NCBI GenBank assembly: GCA_015523335.1
Contig: WAKM01000056.1
Location: 1 to 46,281, forward strand
From: Archaeoglobaceae archaeon
GTDB taxonomy: Archaea; Halobacteriota; Archaeoglobi; Archaeoglobales; Archaeoglobaceae
Length of the DNA stretch: 46,281 nucleotides
Direction of reading: 5' to 3'
Position 1 is the stretch's first letter; each line of letters begins with the position of its first letter. This document shows positions 1,268 to 36,559 of the stretch, piece after piece. Made by a program: the position numbers and the translations under genes. A model generated the notes under the pieces. It did not search any database, was not told where the DNA came from, and saw only the letters and a program-made list of their open reading frames with translations.

Positions 1268-1401
1268 AACCTCAGACGAATCTATGATGTTTTTAAAAAT
1301 TTTTAACAAAATGTCCTAAAGATTCATAATTTTTCATAGTTAGAACCACCAGTCTAAAGATTTTGGCTAAGCTCGTATCCGATTGCTGGCACAACTATCA
1401 T

Positions 1402-1417
1402 CGAAAAATATTTAAAA
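1402..1417 (+). promoter_or_regulatory. BRE/TATA promoter of the ilv leader
   Basis: CGAAAAA (1402-1408) followed by TATTTAAAA (1409-1417) is a textbook archaeal BRE plus TATA. The TATA centre is 27 nt before the leader-peptide ATG at 1440, so transcription should begin at or within a few bases of that ATG, giving a leaderless mRNA whose first codons are the leader peptide. The transcription start is inferred from spacing, not measured. Confidence 0.75.
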
Positions 1418-1439
1418 TTAGCAACACCACTGCAAAACA

Positions 1440-1499
1440 ATGCCTAAATTCATCCCAATTCCAGCCATTCTCGTATCCCTTTTGGTATTGGTAGAGTAA
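1440..1499 (+). CDS. Putative Ile/Leu/Val-rich leader peptide upstream of ilvBN
   Basis: A 19-codon ORF reading [19 protein letters not shown]. Ten of 19 residues are Ile, Leu or Val, including the run ILVSLLVLV, exactly the products of the pathway that the next gene starts. It ends at a TAA (1497-1499) six nt before a G/C hairpin with a T-rich 3' flank and 40 nt before ilvB. This matches the design of bacterial ivbL/ilv leader peptides, in which stalling at branched-chain codons controls termination. No homologue is known to me for archaea; function is inferred from composition and position. A chance ORF is possible, but the composition and the promoter placement argue against it. Confidence 0.62.
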
Positions 1500-1504
1500 A
1501 CTAT

Positions 1505-1527
1505 CCCGCTTTTTTGGCGGGTTTTCT
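1505..1527 (+). terminator. Candidate attenuator hairpin with T-tract before ilvB
   Basis: CCCGC (1505-1509) can pair with GCGGG (1517-1521) around a T-rich loop, followed by TTTTCTT. Archaeal RNA polymerase terminates readily at T-runs, so both the T-rich loop and the 3' T-run could act. Position directly after the leader-peptide stop codon suggests a regulated terminator rather than the end of an unrelated gene. The stem is only 5 bp, so strength is uncertain. Confidence 0.5.
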
Positions 1528-1539
1528 TGGGGTGGTTCT

Positions 1540-3204
1540 ATGCGTGCTGCAGATGCGATCGTCAAGGCTCTGGAGATGGAAGGCGTCGAGCACATATTCG
1601 GGATTCCCGGAGGTGCAATTCTGGAAGTTTACGATGCGCTATACGATTCAGAGATCGTCCACATTCTTACGAGGCACGAGCAAGCGGCTGTGCACGCGGC
1701 TGACGGATACGCGAGAGCTACCGGAAAAGTCGGAGTTGCTTTCGCAACCTCCGGCCCGGGAGCGACTAACACCGTTACTGGCATCGCCACGGCATACATG
1801 GATTCCTCACCGCTCGTTGTTATGACAGGGCAAGTGCCGAGAGCTATGATTGGAAACGATGCTTTTCAGGAAGCCGACACAACCGGCATAACGATGCCGA
1901 TAACAAAGCACAACTACCTCGTCACAGACGAGAGACAACTGCTCAGAATAATCAAGGAAGCTTTTCACATAGCTTCAACCGGAAGACCGGGCCCGGTTCT
2001 AATAGATCTGCCGAGAGATGTGACGATGGCCGATATCGAGTTCGATTATCCCGATAAAGTCGATCTGATCGGTTACAAACCCAAGATCAAAGGACATCCG
2101 AAGCAGATAAAAAAAGCAGTCGATATGATAATACAGTCCGAAAGACCGATAATCTTAGCTGGAGGAGGTGTCAGACTCTCCAACGCGCATGAGGAAGTGC
2201 TGAAACTTGCCGAAACCATACCGGCTTTTGTAGTCACGACGCTGATGGGCAAGGGAGCGATTCCAGAAACACATCCCCTCTGTTTGGGCTTCATCGGAAT
2301 GCACGGGACGAAATACGGAAACTACGCAGTAATGGAGGCGGATCTCATCATAGCGATAGGATGCAGGTTCAGCGACAGAACTGTCGGGAAGTTTTCGGAG
2401 TTCGCTCCCGAGGCTAAGATAATACATATAGACATAGATCCAGCTGAGATTGGTAAGAACGTCAGGGTGGACGTGCCAATAGTCGGAGATGCCAAACTGA
2501 TACTGCAGGAAATGATCAAGATGATAAAGACCAAGCAGAGGAAAGAGTGGTTCGAAAGGGTTGAAGAGCTCAAAAGGAAATATCCGCTGAAATATAAGCG
2601 GGACGAAAACGTCATAAAACCTCAGTTCGTGATAGAGAAGGTTTACGAATTGGCTCCTGATGCAATAGTAACTACGGAGGTCGGACAGAATCAGATGTGG
2701 GCGGCTCAATACTTCAAAGTCAAATATCCGAGGCAGTTCATAACCTCCGGTGGTTTAGGAACGATGGGGTTCGGATTTCCAGCTGCAATAGGCGCTCAAG
2801 TTGCATTTCCGGATAAGATCGTTGTCGATATAGCTGGAGATGGAAGCTTCCTGATGAACATTCAGGAATTAGCTACATGCGTCGATTACGATATCCCGGT
2901 TAAGGTCTGCGTTTTGAACAACGCCTACTTAGGTATGGTTAGGCAGTGGCAACAGCTGTTCTATAAGCGGAGATACTCTGCAACGAGGCTAAGGTATCCG
3001 GAGTTAAGCTTCGAGAAGATAGCTAAGGGATTCGGAGCTCACGGGATAACGGTGGAAAAACCGAGCGAAGTTGAGGATGCTTTAAAGGAGGCTTTTGAGA
3101 TCGACAAACCTGTGGTTATCGACTTCCACGTTGAAGTTGAAGAAAACGTCTTTCCGTTCGTTCCTCCGGGTAGATCGCTTAGAGAAGTGTTGGACGGTGA
3201 GTAA
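1540..3204 (+). CDS. ilvB: Acetolactate synthase (AHAS), large catalytic subunit
   Basis: A 554-residue ThDP enzyme that condenses two pyruvates, or pyruvate and 2-oxobutyrate, in the first common step of Val/Leu/Ile synthesis. The N-terminal Pyr domain carries the catalytic glutamate in [17 protein letters not shown] and the GPGATN motif; the middle FAD/DHAP-like domain follows; the C-terminal PP domain has [12 protein letters not shown] and [12 protein letters not shown], the Mg-ThDP site and substrate region. The start ATG has GGGGTGG 6-7 nt upstream. The ilvN start follows the TAA by one nucleotide, so the two subunits are co-translated. A leader peptide and hairpin precede the gene. Confidence 0.97.
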
Positions 3205-3205
3205 G

Positions 3206-3694
3206 ATGAAGAGGTGCACGATTGCGGTTTTGGTTGAAAACAAACCCGGAGTTCTCGCGAGGGTTTCATCACTATTTAGGCGAAGGGGTTTCAACATCGA
3301 GAGCTTAGCAGTCGGAACTACGGAGAGACCGGATATATCGAGGATGACGATTGTGGTTAGAGGGGACGACAGAACCCTTGAACAGGTTATGAAACAGCTG
3401 AACAAGCTGATTGAAGTCATAAAGGTCAGCGATTTGAGCGAAAATAGCGTAGAAAGAGAACTCGCGCTGATCAAGGTTCACGCTCCCCCGGCAAAGAGAA
3501 GCGAGATTATCGAGATCGCAAACATCTTCAGAGCACGTATAGTTGATGTTGCAAGGGACAGCTTCATAATTGAGATTACTGGAGACGAGGAAAAGATCAA
3601 CGCGTTCGTAGATCTTATGAGGCAGTTTGGAATAAAAGAGATGGCTCGAACCGGCAAAATCTCGATGGCGAGGGGTAGCAAGACCGTCGGTTAA
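3206..3694 (+). CDS. ilvN: Acetolactate synthase, small regulatory subunit
   Basis: A 162-residue protein beginning [20 protein letters not shown], the ACT-domain signature of IlvN, followed by the C-terminal small-subunit domain. It activates IlvB and confers end-product (valine-type) feedback inhibition. The reading frame is open further upstream inside ilvB, but the family N-terminus and the tight coupling to the ilvB stop codon (one base between them) fix the start at 3206. Together with the leader peptide, this locus would have both transcriptional and allosteric control. Confidence 0.96.
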
Positions 3695-4270: not shown

Positions 4271-5026
4271 CTACCCCCTCTTTTCACCGAATTCCTTAAA
4301 CAGACCAAGCAATTCCGAGTATGTCCCTTCCCCACCCAAAAAATCCCAGAATTCTTGTCCAATTAAAAGCTCATCCATGCTGAAGAACTTCTTCGTAAAG
4401 CTTCACCTGTAGTTCTCCTTAACCTCACCGTAGGGATTGTATGGAAAAGCGTAGAACGTGATAGCGTTAAACCAAGGACTAGCCCTAAGATACAGAAACT
4501 TCTCCTTAGTTCTACGAGTTTGATCCTTATTCGGTTTCGGTGATTTTATCTCCAAAAAGTAATCATTATCATCCCTCTTAAGATAAAGATCGACGACGAT
4601 CTCCTTCTTGGCATCGTTTTCCGGCTTCGGGATCTCTACATTCGCGTATGGCTTGACTGTCTTCCGCTCTAACCTCTCGAGGTAATCGTCGACGAACGAC
4701 TGAACATTTGGAGATGCCGTAGCAATAAACCTTGCGTTTCTCTTAACATCATCCTACAGACCGCTGTCTTCGGCAATTATCTTTGCTATGTATTCGAAGA
4801 CGCCCTGCCCAAGAGATGTGGAAAATGATCTGAAGAAAGATTGAATTCTCAGAAACCCCTCCGGAATCAGAGCCATGTGAAACGGCTTGTATTCGCCCCT
4901 CTTCTCGCTGAAGAACTCTTTTTTCAAGACTTCGTTCTTAACTACGTCTGGATCGTATTTGTTAACTAAGCCTTGCATGAATCCTTCAAGGTAGTCCCAT
5001 ATCCTCTTCCTCGTTACCCTATCCAT
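4271..5026 (-). pseudogene. Broken TdeIII/MjaII-like type II restriction endonuclease
   Basis: One continuous frame of 252 codons runs from ATG (5024-5026) to TAG (4271-4273) and is interrupted only by TAG at 4754-4756 and TGA at 4403-4405. Both sides of each stop are coding: N-terminal MDRVTRKRIWDYLEGFM, a central PD-(D/E)XK-like core with EIVVDLYL then YFLEIKSPKP, and a C-terminal IGQEFWDFLGGEGTYSELL that I associate with the TdeIII family. The flanking sense suggests TGG to TGA (Trp lost before SFTKKF) and CAG or similar to TAG. There are no indels, so inactivation looks recent. The start lies 4 nt after the methyltransferase stop, forming an R-M operon. The family call is from memory of motifs, hence moderate. 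Confidence 0.8.
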
Positions 5027-5030
5027 AGTC

Positions 5031-6345
5031 TCACTTTTTAAGAAATATCAGATATTCAAACCTCAACTTCGCAAATCCTCCTAATATAGCCCTTTCCAAC
5101 TGCCAAGCGTCTTCAAATTCAATGTCCTTACTCCATTCGATTATCTTTTTGTTGAAGTTCGTCCTACTACCGTTTATGCTTATATCCCCCAAAACTACTA
5201 TCGCCCAGCCGTTCGGCTCGAGAACTCTGAACATCTCCTCTATGCTCCTCTTGAGGTCTCTCTCGTAAAGCACAAGCCTGTCTTTACCTCTCCCCTTCAA
5301 CCCGATCATGTGGTTTCTAAGCTCCCCGATGTCGACGCCCAAGTAGTTAAGGAGATGCTCGTCGTTCTTTATGTAGTCGAGGGCTATGCTGTAAGGTGGA
5401 GACGTAACTATACCCTTAACGCTCTCATCCTTAAGTTTTAAGTCCAACGCGGATCCTATGAGGATTTCGTAATCGCCCAACTCTATTCCTAATTGGTTAA
5501 TGACATTCCAACAACCCCTTATAGTTTCTATGTATTCTTTGAAGTTGTCGAAAAAGAACTGTTGGAGCGATTTCCCCTTCTTCGTTCCGGAAAGATAAGT
5601 GTAATCCGAGAGGGCGTGAAGATAGATCAGAAGAAGAAAGTTTCTCCATTCGAAGGGTAGATCGTGAAGAAAGGAGGACGGGAAGAATCTATCCCAAAGC
5701 ATCTCCAAGAGCTCCTTGGCTGTCAGGCAATCCTCGATAGTCGGCTTAATTGAGTTCTTTGGAATTTTGAGGCTTGAAAAGTATTCGAAGATCTTATAAA
5801 CTTTTCGAGAAATCGACTTCGGTTGAAATCTCTTCGTAATTTATCTTCAACGAGTCCAACTTGATCTGAGAGACTACGGCTAAGGCGGGGTTTATCTCGA
5901 CACCGTAGCCGTTGATACCCAATAGGGACGACTCTATCAAAGTCGTGCCAGAACCTAAGTAGGGATCCAAAATCAGATTACCCTCCTTAGCCTCGGCGAA
6001 GTTTATTAAAGCCTTGATCATCTGCCCGTGAAACTTTCCCTTGTAGGGATAGAACCAGTGCGTCATGTATTGGTTCGTGTGTCCGATCTGTCCCTTCCCC
6101 TTAACTCCGCTTATGAAGTAATGCCAGCTTTTCTTTCCGAGGATCTCCTCGAAATAAGCCGTTCTTCTTACGAATTCTTTTAAATCGTCACCGAATCTCA
6201 GAAATTCCAATTTTGCCAGTTGAAGTTCGTAAAGTTGCCTTGCATCATCAAACAGCTTTAACTCATTACTTGTAAATCTTCCATCCGTAATCCAAATTAC
6301 CGGATCGATTAAACTTTTGATGTCCTCGACGATTTCTTCCAACAT
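5031..6345 (-). pseudogene. Frameshifted SPPY-type DNA methyltransferase (m4C/m6A)
   Basis: Two coding pieces of one protein. The upstream piece (6345 to 5794) has SAM motif I as DPYLGSGTT at residues 127-135 and GYGVEINP. The downstream piece is coding in another frame from at least 5830 to 5031, with IVTSPPYSIALDYI (motif IV) and a typical GDI motif near the end. The 1315-bp span is 3n+1, so a single base was gained; an AAAA run (5802-5805 on the other strand) is a plausible site, since removing one A joins FSK to VYKIFEYF. SPPY favours N4-cytosine methylation. A sequencing error is possible, but the partner nuclease is also broken. Expected full length is about 437 residues. Confidence 0.85.
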
Positions 6346-10047: not shown

Positions 10048-11283
10048 TTACGCCCCGAACTTCTCGGCTTTATCTATTAAATCCATTACGATATTTATCA
10101 GATCCAAACCCCTTATTCTGCAAAGCCCACCCTTATAAGCTTCGAATTCTGAGAAGCTTTTGACATCATCCACCCTGACATCCTTGTAAACTATCGTTAT
10201 GGGAACCGGATCGCCCGTATGTTCTTTGGCAGTGACCGGAGTTGAATGATCCGCTGTTAGGATTAAGCAAACGTTCGAAAAGTCCAAGCTGAGTAATTGC
10301 TCAAAGTGTCTGTCGAGCTTCTCGATGAACTCTTTCTTTCCTTCGAAATCCCCATCGTGCCCGAGTTCATCGGTGGCTTTGAAGTGCAAAAGAACGAAGT
10401 CGTGGGTTTCCAAAGCCTCCAGAGCGGCTTCGACCTTCCCCTTTACATTCGTATACCTATTACCGGTAGCCCCCTCAACCTCTATAACATCTCCCTTCAG
10501 AATCCTTCCGATTCCTTTTATCAGCGTGGTGCCGGTTACAACCGCAAGCTTCATTCCGTATCTCTGCTCGAATGGCGGGATGTGAGGAACAACTCCGACA
10601 CCTCTCAGCAGTAAAACGTTAGCCTTCGGCAACCCCTTCTTAGCTCTCTCCTCGTTAAGCGGATGTTTGTCCAGAATCTCGTGAGCCTTTTCCATGAAGT
10701 AGTTCACTATCTCAGCCGTTCTCTTCGCATTCTCGTCATCTCTCAGAGGTTTACACCTCCAAACCTTCTCCCCAACCTTATGGGGATCGGTATCCGTTAT
10801 CTTATCCGATAGGCCTTCCCCCCTCAAAACCAAAGCTCCCCTGTGCCCGCTTCCCCTTCTGAAGATGAATTCGACTCCGAACTTGCTAAGATCTATTCCT
10901 TCGTTTATAGCCTTGACCAATTCGTCCGTATCGCTTATCCTTCCGGCCCTCCTATCAACCACGACCTTATCGAAAACACTTCCCTCGCCTTCGACCGTTC
11001 CGAAGTTTACTCTGAAGGCTATATCCCCCGGTTTAACCTCAATTCCGGCTCCAGCCGCCTCTATAGGCCCTCTTCCAGTGTAATACTTGTAGGGGTCGTA
11101 GCCCAGAAGAGATAGGTGACCCGTATCGCTCCCCGGTCTTATTCCGGGGGCTATCGGATCCATGATTCCGTTTATACCCATCTCGGCTAATTTATCCATA
11201 TTCGGCTTCTTCGCAGAACTGAGAGGAGTTTTCGTGCCCCTGTCGGAGAGACCATCTATGACAATTAGAAGAACCTTCTTCAT
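10048..11283 (-). CDS. apgM: 2,3-bisphosphoglycerate-independent phosphoglycerate mutase, archaeal type
   Basis: A 411-residue enzyme of the alkaline-phosphatase superfamily that interconverts 3- and 2-phosphoglycerate in glycolysis and gluconeogenesis. Diagnostic motifs are VLLIVIDGLSDRG (first metal-binding Asp), PGSDTGHLSLLGYDP, YTGRGPIEAAGAG and the late ILTADHSTP metal site. Length matches archaeal ApgM (about 400-415). TTTTAAATCC at about 11302-11311 is about 25 nt before the ATG, consistent with a leaderless promoter. It is the first gene of a pair with the beta-helix protein. Confidence 0.97.
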   Translation of the reverse strand: MKKVLLIVIDGLSDRGTKTPLSSAKKPNMDKLAEMGINGIMDPIAPGIRPGSDTGHLSLLGYDPYKYYTGRGPIEAAGAGIEVKPGDIAFRVNFGTVEGEGSVFDKVVVDRRAGRISDTDELVKAINEGIDLSKFGVEFIFRRGSGHRGALVLRGEGLSDKITDTDPHKVGEKVWRCKPLRDDENAKRTAEIVNYFMEKAHEILDKHPLNEERAKKGLPKANVLLLRGVGVVPHIPPFEQRYGMKLAVVTGTTLIKGIGRILKGDVIEVEGATGNRYTNVKGKVEAALEALETHDFVLLHFKATDELGHDGDFEGKKEFIEKLDRHFEQLLSLDFSNVCLILTADHSTPVTAKEHTGDPVPITIVYKDVRVDDVKSFSEFEAYKGGLCRIRGLDLINIVMDLIDKAEKFGA

Positions 11284-11381
11284 ACTTACATCTCATATTT
11301 ACGGATTTAAAACGGTTGCTAAGATAACCATCGTATGTCCACGGATCGCGCAATTACCCGAGCAACGAATTAAAAATTAAA

Positions 11382-30167: not shown

Positions 30168-30287
30168 CCAATTTTTTAATCTATTCTTTTATCGACCTTT
30201 CTTTTGCTGTTCTGATGTAAGTGATGCTTAGTCATAAACCAACCAAAAGCCAAAAACGATTTTAAAAGTATCTGCTAAATCGGTACG

Positions 30288-31346
30288 ATGTTACTTGTAA
30301 AAACACCGCGAGAGCTTGAGTACGTAGCAGCCGATCACATAAGGGAAAGACTCGGTAATGTAAAGCTTGAGATCCGTCCTTCCGGCTATTTGGGGCTCAT
30401 TATTGTTCATTCGGACGAGATAGAAAAGATAAGAGATATTCCAGAGATCGAGCGTATAATCCCAATATCGATAGTCTGCAAAGCCGATCCGGATGAGATT
30501 GCATCAAAAGCTGAAGAGATAGTTAAGATTGCTGGAGAGTTCAAGACATTCGCAATCAGAACTAAGAGGAGAGGAAAGAAGCATAACTTCACAAGCACAG
30601 ACGTTAACGTAAAGCTTGGAGCCAGAATAAAGGAGCTTACGAATGCAGACGTAGACTTGGATTTTCCAGAAAAAGCGATTTATGTCGAAATAATCGGAGA
30701 TGCAGCATACATCGGAGTGATCGACGGAAGTGAGGAGCGGAAGAAGTACACTCCAGAGAAGGTCGATGCGAGAAAGTTGCTTGAGAAGATATCGATTGTT
30801 CAACTACCCTACTTGGAAGACATCAGCGCAGCCAAGGAGATGGGCGAAAGGATCGGTAGAGCTGCGCAATCTTTTGAGGTTAAAGAGCTAATAATATCAC
30901 CCTTCGGCTACGTCGATGCATTTGAGCTTGAGGCTTTTTTGAGGGGCGTTAGAAAAGGTAGATGGACTAGGCTTGAAATTCAGAAGAAGGCTTACAGTAG
31001 AGAAGTAAGAGAAGTGCCAGTTTACGTCCACGATCTATATCAAACTGCGAGAGACAAGCGTAGAAAGAATTACGTGCTGATAGTTACCGATCCAACTGGC
31101 AAGCAGATAGCTGACGTTAAGGATCAGCTTAAGAAGGATTTGAAGTATGCTAAGGAGGTTGTTGTGTTCATAGGAAGCAGAGTAGGCATTCCGAAAGGTG
31201 TGTTCAGGCTTGCAGATTATGTGATAGATCTAGCTCCATACATAACGTTCGCAACCGAGCAGGCGATTCCCGCAACGCTTATAGCCCTAATCGGAATTTA
31301 CGAGGAAGCAGAACTCGAAGAATCTGATGAATCAGAGGATAAGTAG
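30288..31346 (+). CDS. THUMP-SPOUT RNA methyltransferase
   Basis: A 352-residue protein: an N-terminal NFLD-THUMP RNA-binding region (about 1-155, TFAIRTKRRGKKHNFTSTDV and AIYVEIIGDAAYIGV) and a C-terminal SPOUT (alpha/beta knot) methyltransferase domain (about 165-335, VVVFIGSRVGIPKGVFRLAD and ITFATEQAIPATLIALIG). It probably 2'-O-methylates or otherwise methylates tRNA using SAM; an archaeal THUMP-SPOUT enzyme modifying tRNA position 6 is one possible equivalent. The end is acidic (ELEESDESEDK), and the last 49 bp overlap thiE on the other strand. Confidence 0.85.
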   Translation: MLLVKTPRELEYVAADHIRERLGNVKLEIRPSGYLGLIIVHSDEIEKIRDIPEIERIIPISIVCKADPDEIASKAEEIVKIAGEFKTFAIRTKRRGKKHNFTSTDVNVKLGARIKELTNADVDLDFPEKAIYVEIIGDAAYIGVIDGSEERKKYTPEKVDARKLLEKISIVQLPYLEDISAAKEMGERIGRAAQSFEVKELIISPFGYVDAFELEAFLRGVRKGRWTRLEIQKKAYSREVREVPVYVHDLYQTARDKRRKNYVLIVTDPTGKQIADVKDQLKKDLKYAKEVVVFIGSRVGIPKGVFRLADYVIDLAPYITFATEQAIPATLIALIGIYEEAELEESDESEDK

Positions 31347-33295: not shown

Positions 33296-34743
33296 CCCTT
33301 AGCTACGCCCAGAGGTAGCAACCTTGCAACGAGCTTCGATATTCCAGCCCTATGCACTACATCCACGACATCATCGCTCGACTTATAAGCTTCCGGCGCC
33401 TCCTCAGCTAACAAAGCTCCGTGAGTAGCTCTAACGTAAATTCCTCTCCTTTCTAAGTTCTGCTTGACGATATTACCTCTGAGCTTTCTCTTAGCAGCGG
33501 CTCTGCTCATCACTCTACCGCTTCCGTGGCAAGTGCTACCGAAGGTTTCCTCCATAGCCTTTTCGGTTCCGATGAGCACGTAGCTTGGAGTTCCCATCGA
33601 ACCCGGTATCAGGACGGGCTGTCCGATTTCTCTGTAATCCTTCGGAACATCCGGATGCCCTGGGCCAAACGCTCTCGTCGCACCCTTTCTGTGGACGCAG
33701 ACTTTCTTCTTTTTGCCATCAACTTTGTGCACTTCGAGCTTAGCTATGTTGTGTGCAACATCGTATACAAGCTCCATTCCCAAGTCTTCTTCACTCATCT
33801 TGAATACCTTCTGGAATGTCTCCCTGACCCAATGCGTTATGATCTGCCTGTTGCACCAAGCGTAGTTTGCGCTTGCGGCCATTCCTCCGAAGTAATCCTG
33901 CCCTTCTTTGCTCTTAATCGGAGCGCAAGCAAGCTGTCTATCTGGCAATTTTATACCGTATTTCCTCACAGCCCTGTCGAGAACAACCAAGAAGTCTGAA
34001 CAGACCTGATGTCCCAAACCTCTGCTGCCGCAGTGAACCATTACCGTCACCTGCCCCTCCTGAAGCCCCATCGCTTTGGCTGCTTTCTCGTCGAATATCT
34101 TATCCACATACTGCACTTCCAAGAAGTGGTTTCCACTGCCAAGAGTTCCGAGTTGAGGTCTTCCCCTTTCTCTCGCTTTCCTGCTCACTACTTCCGGCTT
34201 TGCACCTTCCAATGCTCCGTTCTCCTCGCAGTGCTCTAAGTCTTTCTCGTAGCCGTAGCCGTTCTCTACAGCCCATCTGGCACCTTCAACAAGCACCTCA
34301 TCCAATTCGTGATCCTTAACCCTCAACCTGCCCTCGCTTCCGACTCCGGAAGGAACCGCAACAAAAAGCTCGTCTATAAGCTCCCTGATTTTCGGTCTAA
34401 CTTCATCCACCGTTAGGTTAGTTCTGATTAGCCTGACACCGCAGTTTATATCGAAACCTACGCCTCCCGGGCTAACAACTCCTTCCTCAGCATCGAAAGC
34501 AGCCACACCGCCAATCGGAAAACCGTAACCGACGTGAACGTCGGGCATAACCAAGCTAGCAACCTGAATTCCGGGCATCGTGGCAACGTTCGCAGCCTGC
34601 TCGACGGCATCTCTCTCAAGTATCTGCATCAGCTTGCGGTTGATGTAGAATACAGCTGGAACTCTCATTCCCGGTTTGTAACCCTTAGGTAATTCCCACT
34701 TGTAATCGGTAATCTTTCTGAAAATACTCTCAAATCCTGCCAT
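33292..34743 (-). CDS. rtcB: RNA-splicing ligase RtcB
   Basis: A 483-residue Mn/GTP-dependent 3'-phosphate RNA ligase that joins tRNA exon halves after intron removal. Visible: [14 protein letters not shown] (metal Cys), [22 protein letters not shown] and the guanylylated His at about residue 406 in [12 protein letters not shown]. No intein is present, although several archaeal RtcB proteins carry one. It is divergent from glyS. Confidence 0.97.
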
Positions 34744-34852
34744 GTTGTAAATCTGAAGCTATGGATTTTTAAAGCTTTAGTAATCGCCAGAGCAAGTCAA
34801 GGATTATAAGCATTCAAAAAGCCTTTTAAAAAGTTCGTTATTATGGCTGAGC

Positions 34853-36559
34853 ATGAGTGAACTGATGGAAATGCTCATCAGAAGGGGATTCCTTTGGCAA
34901 TCATTCGAGATATACGGAGGAATGGCCGGGTTTATAGATTACGGTCCTCTCGGAAACGGTTTGAGGAGGAGGCTCGAAAATCTTTGGAGGGAATTTTTCG
35001 TAATAAACGAAAGGGCTGTCGAAATAGATACGCCGACTGTGAACGTTGAGGAGGTTTTCATAGCTTCCGGTCATGCGGAATCGTTCACCGATGTAGCTAT
35101 AGAATGCCAGAAGTGCGGCAAGGTTTTCAGGGCCGATCATTACATAAAGGAGAAGCTGAACATCGAAGCGGATTGCACGATCGAAGCAGTTAAGGAGATA
35201 ATAGAGACATACAACCTAAGATGCGACTGCGGCGGAAGGTTCGGAGAGCCGTTCCACTTTAATCTGATGTTCACAACATCTATAGGCCCGGGCAAAGGCA
35301 AGAAGGGTTATCTGCGTCCCGAGACAGCTCAAGGTATATTCATAGCGTTCAAGAGGTTACTCGATTACTTCAGGGGTAAGCTTCCTTTCGGCGTTGCTCA
35401 GATAGGGAGAGCATACAGGAACGAGATAAGTCCGAGGCAGGGAGTTATAAGGCTGAGGGAGTTCAATCAGGCCGAATTGGAATACTTCGTAAATCCAAAG
35501 GAAAAGACCCATCCCCAATTCGAAAGGTATGCGAACGATGTTGTCAAACTTGTTGATAAGTTCGACAACGAGTATAAAATAACGCTAAAAGAAGCTGTAG
35601 AGAAAGGCATCATCGCACACGAACTTTTGGCATACTTCATAGGAAAGACGAGAAGATTCCTGTTGAAGGCTGGAATCAGAGATGATAGGCTTAGGTTCAG
35701 ACAGCACAAGGACGATGAGAGAGCACACTATGCTGTTGATTGCTGGGATGCCGAAGCTTTAACGAGCTACGGCTGGATAGAAATAGTTGGAATTGCTGAC
35801 AGAACCGATTACGACTTAAGGAAGCATATCGAGCACAGCGGAGAAGATTTAACGGTTTTCGTTCAGTTTAAAGAGCCGATTAAGGTTAAGAAGCTGAAGA
35901 TAGTTCCGGATTTGAAGAAGCTTGGTCCCGTGTATAGGAAGAAGGCAAAGGCGATTGCAAAAGCTTTAGAAGAGCTCGAAGTTAAGGATAAGAACATCGA
36001 AAAGGTTACCGTAGAGGTTGATGGAGAAAAGATCGAAATCAGCAGTGAGTTCTTCAATGTTGAAGAGGTTGAAGAGGAGATATACGGTGAAAAGATAATT
36101 CCACACGTAATAGAGCCTTCGTTTGGGCTCGACAGAATCACATACACGATCTTGGAGCACTCGTTTGAAAAGGATACAGTGGATGGAGAGGAAAGAAAGG
36201 TTCTAAGACTCAAAAGATGGATAGCTCCCGTTCAGGTTGCAGTTCTTCCGTTACTTTCGAAGAATGAGTTCATCAAAGTCTCGCTGGAGTTAGTAGATAT
36301 GCTAAGGAATGCAGGAATATACACGGAATACGACGATTCGGGTAGTATAGGAAGGAGATACAGGAGGTTCGACGAAATAGGAACACCTTTCTGCGTAACG
36401 GTTGATCATCAGACGCTCGAAGATAGAACTGTAACAATAAGAGACAGAGATACGACTAAACAAGTTAGAGTCGAAATCGACAGGCTTGTGAACGTTCTAA
36501 AGGAGTTATTAAGCTCTGAAAAGGATATAACGGAATTCGGAGAGATCTTCAAAGCTTGA
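34853..36559 (+). CDS. glyS: Glycyl-tRNA synthetase, archaeal/eukaryal dimeric type
   Basis: A 568-residue class II synthetase: motif 1 region near GFIDYGPLGNGLRRRL, motif 2 FGVAQIGRAYRNEISPRQG, motif 3 VIEPSFGLDRITYTIL and a C-terminal anticodon-binding domain (QVAVLPLLSKNEFIKVSLEL). Four cysteines around ECQKCGKVF and LRCDCGGRF suggest a zinc site in the insertion. TTTTAAAAAG centred near 34828 is 25 nt before the ATG, so the message is probably leaderless. Confidence 0.97.
   Translation: MSELMEMLIRRGFLWQSFEIYGGMAGFIDYGPLGNGLRRRLENLWREFFVINERAVEIDTPTVNVEEVFIASGHAESFTDVAIECQKCGKVFRADHYIKEKLNIEADCTIEAVKEIIETYNLRCDCGGRFGEPFHFNLMFTTSIGPGKGKKGYLRPETAQGIFIAFKRLLDYFRGKLPFGVAQIGRAYRNEISPRQGVIRLREFNQAELEYFVNPKEKTHPQFERYANDVVKLVDKFDNEYKITLKEAVEKGIIAHELLAYFIGKTRRFLLKAGIRDDRLRFRQHKDDERAHYAVDCWDAEALTSYGWIEIVGIADRTDYDLRKHIEHSGEDLTVFVQFKEPIKVKKLKIVPDLKKLGPVYRKKAKAIAKALEELEVKDKNIEKVTVEVDGEKIEISSEFFNVEEVEEEIYGEKIIPHVIEPSFGLDRITYTILEHSFEKDTVDGEERKVLRLKRWIAPVQVAVLPLLSKNEFIKVSLELVDMLRNAGIYTEYDDSGSIGRRYRRFDEIGTPFCVTVDHQTLEDRTVTIRDRDTTKQVRVEIDRLVNVLKELLSSEKDITEFGEIFKA

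Follow-up and report, generated by a model that had tools for sequence, protein, structure and literature searches.

Ribosome-mediated transcription attenuators control branched-chain operons of bacteria, examples being the ivbL leader of ilvB and the ilvL leader of ilvG in Escherichia coli. In a 46,281-nucleotide stretch of DNA from an archaeon of the family Archaeoglobaceae (contig WAKM01000056.1; the whole stretch is referred to as the window), a short open reading frame (ORF) rich in isoleucine, leucine and valine (I/L/V) codons lies directly upstream of ilvBN, the gene pair with which valine and leucine synthesis begins. This raises the question of whether an archaeon regulates this pathway in a comparable manner. 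A paper published in 2021 states that no mechanism of transcription attenuation or antitermination was known in archaea (PMC8448881), and no archaeal leader-peptide attenuator was found in the open-access literature that we searched. An initial annotation of the window had proposed a translation-dependent attenuator in which ribosomes stall at Ile, Leu and Val codons ahead of a G/C hairpin and a T-tract. Here this proposal is considered in the light of related genomes.

The leader and its conservation

The components named in the initial annotation, a BRE/TATA element followed by a short ORF, a hairpin, a T-tract and ilvB, are all present in the window in that order (Table 1). The ATG of the leader is located 29 nt past the start of the TATA box and 26.5 nt from its centre, the latter in keeping with the value of about 27 nt previously given, and 10 of the 19 residues are, as reported, I/L/V. 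The end of the leader is separated from the ilvB start by 40 nt. The promoter-like element upstream of the leader is the candidate promoter of a transcript that, judging by the layout, would encompass both the leader and ilvBN.

Table 1. Features of the ilvBN locus and its upstream region in the window
Feature	Position	Strand	Description
amt	101-1309	minus	Divergent gene upstream of the leader
Candidate promoter	1401-1418	+	BRE-like TCGAAAAA (1401-1408) and TATA core TTTAAA (1411-1416), identified from sequence
Leader ORF	1440-1499	+	19 codons, 60 nt; ATG 1440-1442, stop TAA 1497-1499; identified from sequence
Putative sensor codons	1473-1493	+	GTA at 1473-1475, 1485-1487 and 1491-1493; identified from sequence
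G/C hairpin	1505-1521	+	CCCGC-TTTTTT(G)-GCGGG, the loop containing U6; window's genus only
U-rich tract	1522-1528	+	TTTTCTT between leader and ilvB; candidate archaeal termination signal
Shine-Dalgarno-like sequence of ilvB	1529-1535	+	GGGGTGG; a GGTGG-type sequence recurs in relatives
ilvB	1540-3204	+	Acetolactate synthase large subunit; NCBIfam NF004710 (1046.8 bits) and TIGR00118 (890.8 bits), both above cut-off
ilvN	3206-3694	+	Acetolactate synthase small subunit; NCBIfam NF008864 (236.7 bits) and TIGR00119 (232.9 bits), both above cut-off

An ilvB gene was detected in 52 of 55 genomes of the heat-loving Archaeoglobaceae, and 48 upstream regions, representing 12 genera, were compared. In every one of the 48 a short ATG-initiated ORF precedes ilvB, and thus lies between the promoter and the first structural gene of a biosynthetic operon; leaders of relatives include MKKFSGKEFIVVQLLLLF, MQTKLSLPSIVVVC, MFVNCEIRSIELFLIVVVQ, MHTHYVNSIIISVSLVVLLVE, MATGLGLPVFLPVPVAIIVVH and MFVSLLLGVVVLF. 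The ORFs range from 13 to 28 codons, with 16 different lengths, and terminate 12-40 nt before the ilvB start. The distance from the first base of the TATA hexamer to the leader ATG is confined to 27-31 nt in all 48 regions and is exactly 28 nt in 31 of them. Such spacing predicts a leaderless mRNA, and the leader is thus expected to be translated from a leaderless start, with the 5′ end of the transcript in the window at, or within a few nucleotides of, position 1440. The initial annotation had held that the ORF would lose credibility if it, or its composition, were not conserved in relatives; instead, the family retains the ORF together with its position and its I/L/V content, while the nucleotides, the length and the N-terminal sequence change freely. 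We therefore regard it as highly probable that this is a genuine, conserved regulatory leader ORF.

The composition of the leader is a property of its reading frame. Across the 48 leaders I/L/V residues average 50% in frame (genus means range from 41% to 57%), compared with 19% and 13% in the other two frames, while shuffled leaders reach 29.0 ± 1.4%, with a maximum of 33.5% in 1000 shuffles. The retention of an I/L/V-rich frame through 16 different lengths implies that insertions and deletions occurred in threes, as selection on a coding sequence predicts. An exception was observed in the draft genome G045 (locus L119, on G045:C210 just upstream of 12794), where the ATG frame meets a TAG before the GTA run and the latter is in another frame (VPVVVLF*), reflecting either a frameshift or an assembly error.

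It could be argued that the ORF has simply arisen by chance in a T-rich 5′ region. When the leader of the window is considered in isolation, 66 of 9190 stop-free shuffles attain 10 I/L/V residues (p ~0.007), a value that is not negligible on a genome-wide scale, and thus the case rests on the relatives. Conservation in 48 of 48 regions, the fixed spacing from the TATA box and the frame specificity contradict a chance origin, as does a control search of 270 kb for short ORFs that are rich in I/L/V and placed at TATA spacing, which returned five matches, two of them ilvB leaders, leaving about three attributable to chance. The occurrence of the leader in all 48 related genomes is far beyond chance, and we attach almost no weight to this explanation.

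A second possibility is that the leader encodes a small hydrophobic, perhaps membrane-associated, peptide that acts in trans. I/L/V make up half of the residues, and peptides of 15-25 residues are common, which would suit such a role. The peptides, however, vary from 13 to 28 residues with no conserved sequence, and the enrichment extends to V, L and I but not to F, A or M (the last ten residues of the family leaders comprise V159, L127, I50, F27 and A13). Selection at the level of the GTA codon, described below, would also not be expected of a membrane peptide, making this function highly unlikely.

Valine codons and the putative signal

All three Val codons of the leader in the window are GTA, and this preference extends to the family. 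In the second half of the leaders GTA accounts for 143 of 163 Val codons, and in the first half for only 6 of 27. In 138 ordinary genes from these genomes its share of Val codons is 13% (odds ratio for second halves relative to genes 47; Fisher p = 4e-97). The second-half bias is evident as a GTA majority in 11 of the 12 genera and as two of four codons in the remaining genus. Runs of valine (VVV) occur in many genera, so that codons for one amino acid are clustered; the bias is shared by tandem codons and by isolated Val codons at varying positions, where 56 of 76 are GTA. The I/L/V content, at 50% against 29% in shuffles, together with the GTA bias, shows that the leader is enriched in codons for end products of the pathway.

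The leucine and isoleucine codons behave differently. In the second half of the leaders these residues are specified mainly by U-rich codons (CTT 50, TTG 43, ATT 42), and ATA, which comprises 50% of Ile codons in genes, is used for only 1 of 47; the shift is thus towards U-rich rather than rare synonyms. We read two selections in this pattern, one apparently for GTA as the sensing codon and one for U-rich RNA around the end of the leader. In bacterial attenuators it is the rare or poorly charged isoacceptors that are sensitive, and GTA is interpreted as the sensing codon on this basis. Given the GTA bias, and the lack of a shift to rare synonyms for Leu and Ile, valine is the most probable signal, sensed at GTA codons, in place of the three amino acids equally. 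The proposal that ribosomes stall at Ile, Leu and Val codons alike is therefore retained with respect to a branched-chain-rich leader but narrowed with respect to what is sensed. That the leader senses valine through its own translation is likely.

It is conceivable that GTA serves as a nucleotide element instead of a sensor codon, the GTA repeats and U-rich DNA constituting an operator or RNA-binding site of which the open frame is a by-product. GTAGTA is conserved at the nucleotide level in many genera, and the codon bias could mirror a binding site. Against this view, the I/L/V-rich frame is maintained through many ORF lengths, GTA also prevails among Val codons that stand singly at varying positions, and the leader of the window contains no GTAGTA at all yet uses GTA for every Val codon. 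We consider a nucleotide element very unlikely.

It should be noted that no tRNA-Val(UAC) was found among the 42 tRNAs detected in the draft genome to which the window belongs (G000), in which the Val GAC and CAC tRNAs were identified. The detected set also lacks Trp, Tyr and some Ala and Gly tRNAs, and the missing genes probably reflect introns or gaps in the draft. If tRNA-Val(UAC) were truly absent, the reading of GTA would be unusual.

Candidate control point between the leader and ilvB

The G/C hairpin after the leader stop had been presented as part of the attenuator. It is not general: the CCCGC..GCGGG stem is confined to genomes of genus 1, that of the window, and GC-rich hairpins after the stop otherwise occur only in members of two further genera, with different structures or none elsewhere. 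Genus 6 has GGGC..GCCC, and some genus 3 genomes have GCCC..GGGC or GGC..GCC. Most genera show hardly any predicted structure at 75 °C. A conserved hairpin switch was consequently rejected, as the hairpins are genus-specific, no fold is common to the genera and predicted structure nearly vanishes at 75 °C in most of them. Similarly, no conserved alternative structure that could act as a mutually exclusive antiterminator hairpin was found across the genera, and Rfam covariance models, including those of the T-box, the ppGpp riboswitch and the ilvB motifs, produced in the region 1200-1700 only a chance snoRNA match (E 0.33) below the gathering score. The GTA codons were also considered as GUA repeats that pair with the ilvB start, which was dismissed as a general explanation, since the mean energy for cognate pairs was −13.3 kcal/mol and that for pairs with other genera −13.0 kcal/mol.

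The leader might nevertheless act at the level of translation, a ribosome stalled on valine codons opening a structure that hides the Shine-Dalgarno (SD) sequence and start of ilvB, without premature termination, in the manner of the mycobacterial leaderless polycysteine ORFs or of the erm leaders. The layout, in which a short ORF with a predicted leaderless start carries repeats of a single codon towards its end and an SD-led gene begins 12-40 nt downstream, is close to that in mycobacteria. There are, moreover, genus-specific stems, which in the Geoglobus-like genus 8 span the leader stop and abut the SD (97% of cells paired) and in genera 3 and 12 lie inside the leader ORF (100% of cells paired), with changes on both sides in four pairs, and some leaders of genus 13 can pair with the SD directly. 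In contrast, the counts of such pairs are not clearly greater than in shuffle controls and no structure is common to the genera. Masking the footprint of the stalled ribosome alters the cost of opening the SD only from 2.9 to 2.6 kcal/mol at 75 °C (6.8 to 6.4 kcal/mol at 37 °C), and the Val-codon region shows no preference for the cognate ilvB start; thus neither the masking nor the cognate-pairing test revealed a ribosome-binding site (RBS) that is hidden by structure and freed by the stalled ribosome. A translational attenuator is, in our view, possible but less likely than one acting at termination. In the same interval, some members of genus 2 (G004, G007 and G008) display a duplication of the SD-like GGTGGT between the leader stop and the ilvB ATG, exemplified by AGAGGTGGTATGAGGTGGTTTTAA in G007.

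What recurs between the leader and ilvB is a U-rich tract. In 42 of 47 relatives the interval from the last Val codon to the SD contains at least 5 T in 7 nt, and T exceeds A there in 10 of 12 genera (p = 0.002). The longest run averages 4.4, only moderately longer than the 3.4 of shuffles of the same bases; the tract is weak in a few genomes (G019, G027 and G030), and the combination of hairpin plus T-tract is limited to a few. Archaeal terminators are U-tracts that do not require a hairpin and are bound by aCPSF1 (PMC8716108). In the FttA structure the best position for U-rich RNA is 30-36 nt back from the RNA 3′ end (PMC11616081), which, with the tract beside the sensor codons, would place the polymerase near the ilvB start. 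Steric, mutual exclusion between the ribosome and FttA has been proposed (PMC11616081; PMC8116511). The recurrence of the tract, the nature of archaeal terminators and the geometry and exclusion described for FttA favour an attenuator that operates at termination; whether a U-tract terminator is the control point seems to us about evenly balanced.

We propose that the leader would be translated from its leaderless start once RNA polymerase leaves the promoter. When charged valyl-tRNA is plentiful, the ribosome would traverse the GTA-rich end, terminate and depart, exposing the stretch of U-rich RNA that separates the leader from the ilvB SD to U-tract termination by RNA polymerase with aCPSF1/FttA, such that in valine-replete cells much of the transcription would end ahead of ilvB or in its first part. 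Under valine shortage the ribosome would dwell on the GTA codons beside the U-tract and bar the termination factor from the nascent RNA, or from polymerase-bound Spt5, allowing the polymerase to read into ilvBN. In the genus of the window, a ribosome halted at the last GTA would, by estimate, have its leading edge some 5-20 nt short of the U-tracts, making physical occlusion borderline there; because the tract is slightly past the ribosome edge, the mechanism in this genus might instead act through competition for polymerase-bound Spt5.

The leader could also be translated solely to load or couple ribosomes onto ilvB by reinitiation, with no sensing of amino acids. The leader stop is within a compatible distance of the ilvB start, 12-40 nt, in all genomes. 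Reinitiation, however, leaves unexplained the I/L/V enrichment, the restriction of the GTA bias to the second half of the leader and the confinement of the leader to a branched-chain gene, and under starvation it would reduce IlvB, opposite to what a biosynthetic gene calls for. It is thus an improbable function.

Taken as a whole, the comparison shows the ORF, its distance from the TATA box, its frame, the I/L/V enrichment, the GTA bias, the U-tract and the restriction to ilvBN; translation, stalling, the direction of regulation and an effect on termination rather than on access to the ilvB start are what we infer from them. We lean towards a leaderless, valine-sensing leader-peptide attenuator of ilvBN that probably gates U-tract termination without a conserved hairpin. 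The more specific version, an archaeal transcription attenuator lacking alternative hairpins in which a ribosome at GTA shields the U-tract from aCPSF1/FttA-dependent termination, is advanced tentatively, at slightly short of even confidence. Thus, of the translation-dependent attenuator originally envisaged before ilvBN, the conserved I/L/V leader at a fixed position stands, while the hairpin is not general and valine, not Ile, Leu and Val equally, is the most likely signal.

Distribution and relation to known leaders

The leader appears to be a property of ilvBN in this family. No such leader was found in the upstream regions of leuA, ilvC and ilvD in the Archaeoglobaceae genomes, where these genes appear to be leaderless themselves, nor ahead of the second leuA-like gene of the genome of the window. 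It was likewise not found upstream of ilvB at 36 loci outside the Archaeoglobaceae, where ilvB mostly follows leuA directly, or at locus L130, in one genome of a sister family of the same class. A search for the GTAGTA-leader pattern elsewhere in the family recovered a number of ilvB leaders together with many scattered matches, about as frequent as those of a reversed-pattern control, and a search for Trp leaders using TGGTGG returned noise; as trpE is inside its operon, its upstream region is uninformative with respect to a trp leader. In genomes of genera 3 and 5 (for example G013:C1:85856-89170 and G020:C1:1262133-1265438) a leuA-type gene is positioned directly upstream of ilvB in the same direction, and ilvB still has its own TATA box and leader. 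This arrangement suggests an older leuA-ilvB cluster that was given a separate promoter.

Similar to bacterial ilv attenuators, the archaeal locus has a short ORF, rich in amino acids of the pathway, directly before ilvB on the same presumed transcript, and the peptide varies in sequence and length while its composition is kept. In contrast to those systems, the leader has an archaeal promoter and a predicted leaderless start, its stop is only 12-40 nt from ilvB, there is no conserved pair of terminator and antiterminator hairpins, and a U-tract takes the place of the hairpin terminator. The uORF, or ilvB-II motif, of Corynebacterium ilvBNC is another bacterial branched-chain leader (PMC10272879, PMC11857589). 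The ilvB-OMG and Leptospira ilvB RNA motifs are also ilvB leaders with uORFs rich in branched-chain amino acids, that of Leptospira containing at least three consecutive Val codons (PMC10272879); these, however, are bacterial and have a conserved RNA structure, whereas the archaeal locus has no Rfam match.

In mycobacteria leaderless polycysteine short ORFs mediate attenuation that is tied to the supply of cysteine (Canestrari et al. 2020, as described in PMC9031893). The archaeal leader resembles these in being a predicted leaderless short ORF, with clustered codons for one amino acid, ahead of operonic genes, and differs in its domain, in the putative use of valine for cysteine and in the lack of a conserved RBS-sequestering structure. 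As neither alternative hairpins nor an RBS-sequestering structure was found to be conserved, membership of the bacterial or the polycysteine class is not claimed. With archaeal U-tract/aCPSF1 (FttA) terminators the locus shares U-rich RNA that does not require a hairpin (PMC8716108, PMC11616081), with the distinction that the candidate tract of ilvB is in a 5′ leader beside putative sensor codons.

The presence of the leader and its coding nature appear well supported; that it regulates, and at what level, we infer. The locus thus constitutes a family-wide, sequence-defined candidate attenuator, with valine, via GUA codons, as the putative signal and the U-tract before ilvB as the putative control point. 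If correct, it would represent a form of attenuation in which leaderless translation, the coupling of transcription to translation and U-tract termination are combined, and which would work at ~80 °C, a temperature at which switches based on hairpins are difficult to sustain. It bears on the question of whether archaeal ribosomes control RNA polymerase or FttA through coupling, and of whether archaea evolved leader peptides that sense amino acids independently or such sensing was transferred from one domain to another.

Two other features of the window were observed. Three consecutive ORFs on the minus strand (4754-6345) match the N-terminus of a TdeIII-type restriction endonuclease and two pieces of an N6/N4 DNA methylase, a restriction-modification locus that looks broken or rearranged. 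Paired divergent TTTAAA-N(18-26)-ATG sites are present at 11281-11337, 30233-30290 and 34741-34855, as would be expected if divergent genes in this genome are usually leaderless.
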